A DNA stretch of 40,835 nucleotides from a virus. A program made the position numbers and the translations under genes. Positions 10,928-14,907 of this stretch are shown here, piece by piece; within the stretch, counting starts at the first letter, position 1, and every line of letters begins with the position of its first letter. Location of the stretch: IMG/VR virus record IMGVR_UViG_3300046660_000139, positions 1 to 40,835 of that record. The stretch is one strand, 5' to 3'. The notes below the pieces were generated by a model. It worked only from the letters and a program-made list of their open reading frames with translations. It was not told where the DNA came from and made no database searches.

Positions 10928-10990
10928 GTTCTCTCCCATAAGTTAAATGCGGTTTATCATGAATACTCGCATTGGGCGAGGGTTGCCTAA

Positions 10991-11887
10991 ATGATCTCCT
11001 CCAAAACCCTCAAAGATATTGTCTCCGAAGCGCGCCCAATCATTGAGCGGCAGATTGACGATGCAGAGCGCATTTCTGGTTTCCGCGAAGTTGTCGCATC
11101 GGCCGGCGGCGACTGGGGCGCACTCAAGGCGCTGATTAAGGCCCAGATCCAAGATGAACGCGACGAGACCGGCGACGGCAAACGCGTGAAGAAGATTTTG
11201 GACAAGGCAGAGTTCGCGACCGGTTACGCCGACATGCTCAGCTGGTCGAAGATGAACGAGAATAATTTTTCTGCCGAGGAAGAATTTGACCCGATTACGG
11301 GCGAATTCCTTGAAGACGAACAGCCGGAAACGGCAAACGAGACGCCCAAGCAGGTATACGGGGACAGTGGGGCAGAGGCGACGGCCCTTCCGAGTCAGTC
11401 TGTCAATATTCCTGCCGGCGGGGATGAAGCTTCGAAGATCGACGGATCGGACGAGCAATGCCCCGCCGACAACAATCAGCCGGAAACGGCAGCATTCCAA
11501 GCGAAAGCCAATGATGAAGCATGCGAGACAGGTCCGTATGAGGGCCGCGCGGAGGCTTCGGCCGATGCATCCGACGGTGTGGAGTTGGTGAGTAGGGTTG
11601 TCGATGGCCGAACATCGACTGCAACGTCTGAGGGAATGGACGCGACAGCCGGAGAGACGGCACTCAATTCCGAGATTGCTACGGCCTCTCAAGGCGAAGC
11701 CGAAGCCCCCAGCGTCGAGCGCGTAAGCCCAGCCGAGACCAACACAGGCAGCGCCGCCGCCAACACAGGAGGCGATCATGAAGTAGCTGTTACCCAGTCG
11801 TTCGCCGCACAGGCCGGTGCCTCTGTTCAGGTCGCACCGGCCGCTAAGCTTCGAATTGCTTCCCGAGAATTGGAGGCAACCGAATGA
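10991..11887 (+). CDS. GapR/DUF2312-like protein with long acidic tail
   Basis: A 298-residue protein in two parts. Residues about 1-85 (ARPIIERQIDDAERISGFRE with LKALIKAQIQDERDETGDGK after it) follow the helical pattern of DUF2312, the family of GapR, which binds overtwisted AT-rich DNA in alpha-proteobacteria. Residues about 90-298 are low complexity, rich in Ala, Glu, Thr and Ser, and likely disordered. Function as a replication or nucleoid factor is an inference. It ends in an ATGA overlap with the next small gene. Confidence 0.6.
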   Translation: MISSKTLKDIVSEARPIIERQIDDAERISGFREVVASAGGDWGALKALIKAQIQDERDETGDGKRVKKILDKAEFATGYADMLSWSKMNENNFSAEEEFDPITGEFLEDEQPETANETPKQVYGDSGAEATALPSQSVNIPAGGDEASKIDGSDEQCPADNNQPETAAFQAKANDEACETGPYEGRAEASADASDGVELVSRVVDGRTSTATSEGMDATAGETALNSEIATASQGEAEAPSVERVSPAETNTGSAAANTGGDHEVAVTQSFAAQAGASVQVAPAAKLRIASRELEATE

Positions 11888-12039
11888 CCTGTCAAAACCG
11901 CAAACCCATCCCAAGCCATTACATCGGCTGCCCCAAATGCTGGAAGCCGCTGTCGATCGCAGAGCAGATCGAGAAGCATTGCGAAGAATGCGCGATGGAC
12001 GTTCGGCCGGAACAAATCGCAGATCGGAGAGCAGCATGA
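11884..12039 (+). CDS. Small zinc-ribbon protein
   Basis: A 51-residue protein (MTCQNRKPIPSHYIGCPKCW at the start). Two Cys pairs, GCPKC and HCEEC, stand 16-17 residues apart and would bind one zinc ion. It is linked to the genes on both sides by four-base ATGA overlaps, which supports translation despite its small size. Its role is unknown. Confidence 0.65.
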   Translation: MTCQNRKPIPSHYIGCPKCWKPLSIAEQIEKHCEECAMDVRPEQIADRRAA

Positions 12040-12173
12040 GCATTATGAGTTGCACCTTCGCTGAAGCATGTCTGGTGGCCGTGGTCGTCATCTGCTTCTC
12101 GGCCACCTTCCTCTGCGCCTGCGCTTGCTGCCTATCTGGTCGCATCAGCCGTGAACAAGGAGATAGCGAATGA
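12036..12173 (+). CDS. Small Cys-rich membrane protein
   Basis: A 45-residue protein starting MSIMSCTFAEACLVAVVVIC. One transmembrane segment (ACLVAVVVICFSATFLCACACCL) holds five of its six cysteines. ATGA overlaps with both neighbours support it as a gene. No family is recognised. Confidence 0.55.
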   Translation: MSIMSCTFAEACLVAVVVICFSATFLCACACCLSGRISREQGDSE

Positions 12174-12361
12174 GCTACTTCCTCCTCGGCCTTCAATACT
12201 GCGCCGGAGCCTTTGGCATGATCATGGTGGCAGTCATCGCCGGTAGCATCGCCTATTGGCTGTTCCGCCTGATCTACGGCCAGAGCCTCGCCAGCAAGTC
12301 GGATGAGGAAGCCGGCGCTCCCGAGGGCGAGATCAGCCACGTCAACCGCGAGGACTTTTGA
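12170..12361 (+). CDS. Small unknown membrane protein
   Basis: A 63-residue protein with a transmembrane segment near residues 10-35 (GAFGMIMVAVIAGSIAYWLF) and an acidic soluble tail. It is the last of three overlapping small genes and is followed by inverted repeats and a convergent gene. No family is recognised. Confidence 0.6.
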   Translation: MSYFLLGLQYCAGAFGMIMVAVIAGSIAYWLFRLIYGQSLASKSDEEAGAPEGEISHVNREDF

Positions 12362-12370
12362 ATTTCGATT

Positions 12371-12441
12371 GAGCGCGTCCGTCCCCCAACTCCGCGCGCT
12401 CAAGACTGGTCCAGATCTTCCTCCTCCGGGGTCTGGACCAG
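12371..12441. other. Inverted repeats between convergent genes
   Basis: GAGCGCG (12371-12377) pairs with CGCGCTC (12395-12401), and CTGGTCCAGA (12406-12415) pairs perfectly with TCTGGACCAG (12432-12441). They lie between the end of the rightward membrane-protein gene and the end of the leftward gene at 12400. A bidirectional termination or processing role is possible, but no T-run is present. Confidence 0.4.
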
Positions 12442-13085: not shown

Positions 13086-13088
13086 GTG

Positions 13089-14150
13089 ATGCAGGAAGCA
13101 ATCGAGGTTCTCGACTTATTCAGCGCCGCGGCTGGTGGTTGGTCGCTTGGCATGCACCGTGCCGGCTTCAATACCATAGCCGCATGTGAATTCGTCGACT
13201 GGCGCCGCGCGCTTTATCAGGAGAACAATCCCGGTGTCCGAATCTACGACGATGTCCGCACGCTCACAGCAGATCAACTTCTTCGAGATTTCGGACGACT
13301 TCCGTCCATTGTCGTCGGAAGCCCCCCCTGCCAAGACATCAGCAGCGCCAACACCAAAGGCAAAGGCGTCGAAGGCGAGCGCAGCGGCCTCTACTTCGAA
13401 GCTGTCCGCATTATCGGAGAAGTCCGCCCTCGTTGGTTCGCTCTTGAAAACAGCTCTAATCTCAGAACTCGGGGAGCTGACGCCGTCCTCGCTGCATTGG
13501 AAGCACTCGGCTACGCCTGCTGGTCGTTTGTGGTCCGTGCTGGTGACATCGGAGCCAATCACGAACGGCCCAGGTGTTGGATCATCGGGTGCGACGTCGA
13601 GCAAGTTGCCTACCCCGATGGCCTCGGACGGAATGAAGGATGGGGCAGGGGGCGGTGCGGGTTCGACCTATCCATTTCGGATGATACTGTCTACGCCGCG
13701 GGCGTCGGACATGAAGGCTGCTGGACACGGGGCGACGGGGCGAACAGGAACGGTTCGGCACATGTTGCACGAATCCTACCTGCCGACGCCGCGCGCTTCG
13801 GAAGCTTATCACGGGCCGGATATGACCTCGCACAGCCCGAACATCAAAGCGAGGATGCAGAACAACGATCCACGGTGGTCGGGAGCGAGGGCGCTTGCGG
13901 ATATCCTTCAGAGCCATGGTCTGACTGGAACCACGGCATTACCGGTCACTTACGGCTGGATGATGGGCTTTCCGCCTGGCTGGCTGGCACTCGCGTTGCG
14001 CTCGGCACTCCAAAAGGGACATCTGCAGCAAGTCTCATCGTCGAAGCGTTCGGGGACGCTGTAGTCCCCCAAATACCGGAAGCAATAGGCCGCGCGATCC
14101 TTCGTACTGAGCGAGCCCTGGCCGTCGCCTACGGGAGGATCGCAGCATGA
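13089..14150 (+). CDS. C5-cytosine DNA methyltransferase
   Basis: A 353-residue Dcm-type enzyme that methylates cytosine at C5 using S-adenosylmethionine. Motif I is LDLFSAAAGGWSLG (8-21), motif IV is GSPPCQDIS with catalytic Cys81, motif VI is ALENSSN (118-124), motif VIII is NHERPRCWIIG (158-168), and the SAM-closing motif X is GDAVVPQIPEAIGRAI (about 322-337). The stretch between is the target-recognition region. No restriction nuclease is nearby, so it is an orphan, likely protecting phage DNA from host restriction. The ATG at 13089 is preferred over a GTG at 13086. A second long ORF is overprinted in the +1 frame. Confidence 0.93.
   Translation: MQEAIEVLDLFSAAAGGWSLGMHRAGFNTIAACEFVDWRRALYQENNPGVRIYDDVRTLTADQLLRDFGRLPSIVVGSPPCQDISSANTKGKGVEGERSGLYFEAVRIIGEVRPRWFALENSSNLRTRGADAVLAALEALGYACWSFVVRAGDIGANHERPRCWIIGCDVEQVAYPDGLGRNEGWGRGRCGFDLSISDDTVYAAGVGHEGCWTRGDGANRNGSAHVARILPADAARFGSLSRAGYDLAQPEHQSEDAEQRSTVVGSEGACGYPSEPWSDWNHGITGHLRLDDGLSAWLAGTRVALGTPKGTSAASLIVEAFGDAVVPQIPEAIGRAILRTERALAVAYGRIAA
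13252..14064 (+). CDS. Overprinted ORF inside the C5 methyltransferase gene
   Basis: A frame without stops runs from 13186 to 14064 in another frame of the methyltransferase gene; the first ATG is at 13252 (270 residues). It looks protein-like: SLLKTALISELGELTPSSLH, then ATPAGRLWSVLVTSEP, three related pieces (LPTPMASDGMK, STPRASDMK, LPTPRASEAYH) and YGWMMGFPPGWLALALRSAL. From memory, the same pieces (lpTPtA.D, WK..ATPAGR, MGFP.GW) recur in phage proteins encoded next to or within methyltransferase genes. The true start is uncertain and no clear ribosome binding site is visible. Function is unknown. Confidence 0.6.
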   Translation: MSARSQQINFFEISDDFRPLSSEAPPAKTSAAPTPKAKASKASAAASTSKLSALSEKSALVGSLLKTALISELGELTPSSLHWKHSATPAGRLWSVLVTSEPITNGPGVGSSGATSSKLPTPMASDGMKDGAGGGAGSTYPFRMILSTPRASDMKAAGHGATGRTGTVRHMLHESYLPTPRASEAYHGPDMTSHSPNIKARMQNNDPRWSGARALADILQSHGLTGTTALPVTYGWMMGFPPGWLALALRSALQKGHLQQVSSSKRSGTL

Positions 14151-14344
14151 CCGAACCCTCCGAGATGATTCAGTGGTTAGACAAGCGCATAGCCAGCGCC
14201 ATGACCTGGCTCGACGATCACGGCCGCAGTTCCAAGCGTCCTCGTCCTGAAGGCGAGATCGCCACCAAGCTCGATGACGTGTCGAAGTTTGAGGAGATCA
14301 AGGCGGCTTATGTGAAGGCGCTCGCGAAGAGGGATGCATTATGA
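14147..14344 (+). CDS. Small unknown protein
   Basis: A 65-residue helical protein (MTEPSEMIQWLDKRIASAMT at the start). It is joined to the methyltransferase before it and the adenine methyltransferase after it by four-base ATGA or ATGA-type overlaps. No family is recognised. Confidence 0.6.
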   Translation: MTEPSEMIQWLDKRIASAMTWLDDHGRSSKRPRPEGEIATKLDDVSKFEEIKAAYVKALAKRDAL

Positions 14345-14907
14345 CCGTTGTCGCCTCAAAATATGCTCGCGTCGAAAACGACCTATACCAAACAGAACCA
14401 TGGGTGACTGAGGCTCTATTGCGCCACTTCCCCGTTGCGGGGCTTGATGTGTGGGAGCCGGCCGCTGGCAATCATCTCATGGCTGACGTTATCGCAGAGC
14501 AGGCAAGCTCCGTCTATACATCGGACATCGCGACTTACGGGCGCCAGCATGACAAGGCTTTCGACTTCCTCAAGCCGCATGGCTCATGGCCGGCGCTGGA
14601 TGCCATCATCACGAACCCACCATACGGTAAAAGCAATCGCGATGCGCGTCTCTTCGCCGAGTATGCGCTTACGCGGTGCAAAGGTCTGGTCGCGCTTCTT
14701 CTCACGGCCAAATTCGATTTCGGGAATACACGCACCCATCTATTCGCCACCAATGCTCGCTTCGCCGCCAAGATAACCCTCGTCGATCGCATCAGTTGGA
14801 CGCTCGACGGTGTGACTGGCACCGAAGACCATGCTTGGTACGTTTGGACCGAAGCGCCACGTCTGCCGCGCTCGCCTGTCATTCTTTATGACGGGAGGAG
14901 AGCATGA
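14341..14907 (+). CDS. N6-adenine DNA methyltransferase
   Basis: A 188-residue phage methyltransferase. The SAM-binding motif is VWEPAAGNHLMAD (38-49), and the catalytic motif is TNPPYGKS with NPPY at 92-95, typical of N6-adenine (or N4-cytosine) enzymes. Its small size and lack of a clear target-recognition domain fit the short phage Dam-like enzymes. No restriction partner is present, so protection from host restriction or regulation is likely. It overlaps both neighbours by four bases. Confidence 0.85.
   Translation: MTVVASKYARVENDLYQTEPWVTEALLRHFPVAGLDVWEPAAGNHLMADVIAEQASSVYTSDIATYGRQHDKAFDFLKPHGSWPALDAIITNPPYGKSNRDARLFAEYALTRCKGLVALLLTAKFDFGNTRTHLFATNARFAAKITLVDRISWTLDGVTGTEDHAWYVWTEAPRLPRSPVILYDGRRA

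Follow-up and report, generated by a model that had tools for sequence, protein, structure and literature searches.

What does a long second reading frame inside a phage DNA methyltransferase gene encode, and is it a gene at all? The question is raised by a locus in the IMG/VR virus record IMGVR_UViG_3300046660_000139, analysed here over a window of 40,835 nt (the whole stretch, to which all locus positions refer). The C5-cytosine methyltransferase ORF of this locus, termed alpha, carries a long ORF in its +1 frame, termed beta. We propose, with a probability of about 0.87, that the locus is a two-subunit C5-cytosine DNA methyltransferase encoded by one piece of DNA, whose alpha and beta polypeptides would assemble into one enzyme. 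The surrounding genes are those of a temperate phage and include integrase, repressor, RecT, terminase and portal genes. A second DNA methyltransferase (phrog_799, NPPYG motif) lies shortly downstream at 14341-14907. Long ORFs on opposite strands, 10943-12403 (-) and 10991-11887 (+), overlap by about 900 bases, and the + strand ORF 10991-11887 has no match in PHROG.

The features of both frames are collected in Table 1. The +1 frame is free of stops over 13180-14061 and is closed by a stop codon at 14062-14064, which agrees with the original prediction that it stays open over most of the methyltransferase gene. The start proposed at that time, GTG 13186, would give 292 aa and had to be given up; the probable start is ATG 13252, which gives 270 aa. 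An ATG stands at this position in 40 of 42 relatives, and a Shine-Dalgarno-like 4-mer precedes it in 23 of the 42. No clear Shine-Dalgarno sequence was seen ahead of ATG 13252 in the window. The elements by which the second frame had been recognised as protein-like, namely ATPAGRLWSVL, three LPTPxASD-like repeats and YGWMMGFPPGW, are all present as quoted.

Table 1. Features of the nested methyltransferase locus, in window positions.
Feature	Position	Strand	Description and basis
alpha ORF	13086..14150	+	C5-cytosine methyltransferase; motifs I-VIII and X, without motif IX
alpha start candidates	GTG 13086 or ATG 13089	+	sequence
beta ORF	13252..14064	+	+1 frame relative to alpha; 270 aa from ATG 13252; proposed recognition/motif-IX subunit
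alpha motif IV PPCQ	13323..13334	+	sequence; catalytic Cys82, invariant Cys in alignment A5
alpha motif VI ENS	13446..13454	+	sequence; Glu121 invariant in alignment A5
alpha motif X FGDAVVPQIPE	14049..14081	+	sequence; conserved in alignment A5
alpha residues 179-323	13620..14054	+	AF2: pLDDT about 30, no predicted fold
beta QINFF	13270..13284	+	sliding-clamp-binding-like pentapeptide, speculative; motif survey
beta residues 53-99	13408..13548	+	helix and beta-hairpin over the alpha motifs VI-VIII region; AF2, local pLDDT mostly 75-87 in a model of low overall confidence
beta cassette LPTPMASD	13606..13629	+	sequence
beta cassette LSTPRASD	13687..13710	+	sequence
beta cassette LPTPRASE	13780..13803	+	sequence
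beta YGWMMGFPPGW	13951..13983	+	motif-IX-like; hhalign and in-frame position in L360/L361

An open +1 frame in one sequence alone is only moderately surprising. When the synonymous codons of the window gene were shuffled, an equal-length +1 ORF arose in 0.4% of the shuffles (p=0.004), and the same shuffles applied to other single genes gave p mostly in the range 0-0.02. Relatives were collected from viral contigs by the methyltransferase frame alone and were not chosen via the second frame. In nearly all loci of this alpha-selected set, the +1 frame runs without a stop from near codon 50 until some 20 codons short of the end, and the third frame contains roughly 10-20 stops. The exceptions are L087 and L090, which are frameshifted, and L064, which has one internal stop. 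The Rhizobium phages RHph_N2 and RHph_X2_25 also keep the second frame open, and free variation of this frame in relatives, with stop codons, was not what we found. Canonical methyltransferases have at most 42% of their ORF free of stops in the +1 frame, with a median of 16%.

Conservation at synonymous sites, suggested in the original prediction as a check across homologous loci, revealed constraint in the overlap. Among 42 non-redundant genes, the identity at fourfold-degenerate third positions is 0.70 in the overlap and 0.95 at codons 281-300, compared with 0.35-0.38 outside; third positions of alpha in the overlap are second positions of the beta frame. The synonymous constraint sets in around codons 54-65, where the conserved ATG lies, and weakens past the end of beta. 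The most variable codon position of alpha is position 3 outside the overlap and position 1, the beta wobble position, in codons 176-300. Judged from the aligned sequences, beta is under stronger amino-acid constraint than alpha in the C-terminal region. For the C-terminal half of 39 sequences, alpha-synonymous shuffles predict 109 stops in the beta frame and beta-synonymous shuffles predict 138 in the alpha frame, and 0 were observed in either; the expected counts are summed over related sequences and give an effect size, not a p-value or probability. Both frames are maintained, since neither contains the stops that were expected.

These results bear on the view that the second ORF is a by-product of the methyltransferase sequence and its codon usage, with no second protein. 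The moderately unusual outcome of the window gene shuffles fits such a view, as do weak +1-frame matches over motifs VI-VIII in canonical methyltransferases. However, the constraint at alpha-synonymous sites, the switch of the variable codon position and the lack of stops make it very unlikely, and the C-terminal sequence of beta also occurs inside the one-polypeptide relatives described below. The comparative sequence evidence confirms the +1-frame ORF as a real gene under selection, and the overprinting of two conserved proteins, as first suggested, is borne out by the open frame, the synonymous constraint, the stop counts and the homologues.

The methyltransferase frame had been described as fully family-like, and here the original prediction needs correction, as alpha has no motif IX and the region 13620-14054 has no predicted structure. 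Alpha matches Pfam PF00145 (E=1.6e-31) with the alignment confined to residues 7-173, and among PHROG profiles it matches phrog_363. A motif-IX profile matches 0 of 153 alpha proteins, compared with 21 of 21 held-out canonical enzymes. The AF2 model of alpha is confident for most of residues 1-178 and for the C-terminal motif X helix, and no fold is predicted for the 145 middle residues, 179-323. In Foldseek, the alpha model aligns with the 327-residue M.HhaI over about 171-175 columns, which is about half of M.HhaI. In our reading of the model and of the codon-position pattern of the beta frame, alpha would translate 13620-14054 in a frame other than that of the recognition domain.

Of the two frames, only beta matches phrog_1008 ('DNA methyltransferase', E=3.6e-18), a profile that is matched by all 41 members of set A1. 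Sequence searches with beta against Pfam, NCBIfam and PDB gave nothing useful; a Herpes_US8A match was under the cut-off, is probably compositional and was rejected. Similarity of the phrog_1008 type over motifs VI-VIII is in part also shown by the +1 frame of canonical methyltransferases (L331), and that part is not independent evidence. Against canonical motif IX, hhalign scored beta at 22.0, the alpha frame at 9.3 and the third frame at 6.8, a weak local match of 8 columns that counts as supporting evidence only, because at least one outlier of the control with shuffled columns (mean 9.5, maximum 129.3) exceeds the score of beta. In this alignment, WMMGFPPGW of beta is paired with LQGFPDDF, the end of motif IX. 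Few beta proteins score above 5 bits against canonical motif IX. AF2 modelled beta alone with low confidence (pTM 0.23), and Foldseek found no fold match with this model. The poor predicted folding of beta on its own is compatible with an obligate partner and also with a thin alignment.

Relatives with other layouts indicate what beta may contribute. In the actinophages L353-L356, alpha does not extend beyond motif VIII, and the cassettes, the motif IX-like sequence and motif X (GNGV) are in the beta frame. In the mycobacterial prophage prophiFSIL01-1 (L360) and phage Fancypants (L361), a single ORF contains motifs I-VIII, the cassettes, EWMMGWPxxW and motif X, with the LPTPxASD-like cassettes and WMMGxPxxW placed between motifs VIII and X. 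The beta profile A4, built from 33 mostly alphaproteobacterial proteins, aligns with L360 at this place with an hhalign probability of 95% (E=2.3e-8). These natural fusions are the strongest evidence in the compared sequences for beta as the recognition and motif-IX part of the same enzyme. The original prediction left the second product as unknown, one that may assist, regulate or target the methyltransferase; given an alpha without motif IX and the one-polypeptide forms, beta is most likely the detached target-recognition and motif-IX half of that methyltransferase. Since L361 retains a partial +1-frame beta ORF alongside its one-polypeptide form, the one-polypeptide form could be secondary. 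In the variable regions of beta from L035-L092, LPTP-led cassettes differ in number and order, as if shuffled.

The same relatives might be taken to mean that programmed frameshifting joins the beta C-terminus to motifs I-VIII of alpha and that no separate protein is made, all the more as the actinophage ORFs overlap end to start. We consider this unlikely. The onset of constraint near codon 54-60, where a conserved ATG stands some 100 codons ahead of motif VIII, is expected of independent initiation and therefore counts against frameshifting; the full alpha frame through motif X also stays open.

Another reading makes beta a partner in its own right, for example a regulator, a clamp adaptor or an anti-defence protein, and not a structural half of the methyltransferase. 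The long N-terminal part of beta has no counterpart in methyltransferases, and near the beta N-terminus a QLxLF-like pentapeptide is enriched, being found in 92 of 160 beta proteins, many of them related sequences, against 5.7 expected by shuffling. The sliding-clamp-binding consensus is QL(S/D)LF (PMC9690074). This clamp-binding-like pentapeptide is a speculative lead only. Quite improbable as it is, the independent partner has against it an alpha without motif IX and without a folded recognition region, as well as the one-frame forms, in which motifs VIII and X flank the cassettes and WMMGxPxxW.

A second frame in a phage methylase gene has a published precedent of a different kind. In the ShiLan-type case, a hidden out-of-frame HNH ORF, a mobile insertion, lies inside a phage methylase (PMC11855218). 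Beta likewise occupies a second frame in a phage methylase gene, but is neither a nuclease nor an insertion by our results: profile and sequence searches with beta gave no HNH or other nuclease match, and beta covers conserved methyltransferase motifs. A homing endonuclease inserted out of frame, like the ShiLan element, was rejected on these grounds as an extremely improbable identity of beta.

Homologues of beta occur far beyond close relatives, and the second frame is more than a trivial overlap with the same gene. Profile searches found them in 4 of 300 genomes sampled around G001 and in 28 of 399 genomes of one phylum, sampled around G005 (titled Gammaproteobacteria). Further loci are found in Alphaproteobacteria, a Parcubacterium and Paenibacillus. 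Once the profile had been iterated, 64 beta ORFs could be placed, and 61 of them overlie a C5-methyltransferase ORF in its +1 frame; the other three are short or frameshifted fragments. As this sample was gathered via beta, it speaks for the association of beta with alpha and not for the frequency of the pair among methyltransferases. Standalone beta genes were absent from the placed samples. A Leptospira plasmid carries the nested pair, and in a copy on a Bacteroides plasmid (L362) a stop interrupts the alpha frame and the beta frame is open. In Paenibacillus larvae phages, beta is annotated as 'internal gene', and in Vibrio phage 1.236.O (L359) beta is annotated as a gene and the methyltransferase frame is missed. 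The phrog_1008 family and the P. larvae phage 'internal gene' represent the same beta family, annotated as methyltransferase or hypothetical with no subunit role. Literature searches found no published description of this overlap in phages.

Two-polypeptide C5 methyltransferases are known. The small gene of M.EcoHK31I is reportedly contained in the large gene in a different frame (Lee et al. 1995), and the small gene of the window and its relatives is nested in the large one in the same manner. M.EcoHK31I needs both of its polypeptides for methylation and has YGGCCR specificity. M.EaeI is another two-polypeptide C5 methyltransferase of this sort. The large polypeptide of M.EcoHK31I has motifs I-VIII and X, and motif IX is on the small one (PMC3404938). 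The window is alike in both respects, with a large subunit that lacks motif IX and a motif IX-like sequence on the small polypeptide whose match to the canonical motif is weak. In the published account, the predicted recognition domain of M.EcoHK31I is assigned to the large subunit, which is itself a prediction (PMC3404938), whereas the codon-position pattern, the predicted disorder and the fusions favour the small subunit in the window. The repeated LPTPxASD cassettes of beta are a further difference from M.EcoHK31I, as far as the latter is known here by description. In M.AquI, a second polypeptide carries motif IX together with some of the recognition region (PMC3404938). The small subunit of M.AquI also has motif X, which in the window lies in alpha, and the AquI-type placement is seen only in the actinophage relatives L353-L356, which resemble the M.AquI layout. 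The locus is of a known kind, the nested two-subunit C5 methyltransferase, but belongs to a far wider and mostly unrecognised or under-annotated family.

In the proposed mechanism, one message would be translated into both polypeptides, with beta made from the internal ATG. Alpha would supply motifs I-VIII, the core for SAM binding and catalysis, along with the motif X helix at its C-terminus, and beta, with its own internal start, the DNA-recognition region with the LPTPxASD cassettes and motif IX. The two would assemble into a single active methyltransferase comparable to M.EcoHK31I, and the assembled enzyme would methylate phage DNA, both activity and target being presumed. Protection from restriction is an established role of phage methyltransferases. 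By analogy, an anti-restriction role of the locus is likely, and methylation would most plausibly let the phage evade host restriction. A more far-reaching picture, which we hold only tentatively and regard as doubtful, is a reciprocal overprint, in which alpha covers the recognition region and beta the catalytic core, each out of frame, and beta has acquired a conserved N-terminal module there. In that picture, the module would in many lineages bear the clamp-binding-like pentapeptide, which could tether methylation to the replication fork, and the nested, split and one-polypeptide layouts would be states of one widespread shuffling family that convert into one another.

It is rare for a long overlap on one strand to have two conserved products, and the present one recurs in phages and bacteria of several phyla. 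In many cases, annotation pipelines record one frame, and the other half of the enzyme is then missed; moreover, cloned alpha genes may seem inactive. The side-by-side occurrence of nested, split and one-polypeptide relatives opens the origin of such an overlapping pair to testing, and the nested layout would represent a naturally bipartite methyltransferase whose recognition cassettes are modular.
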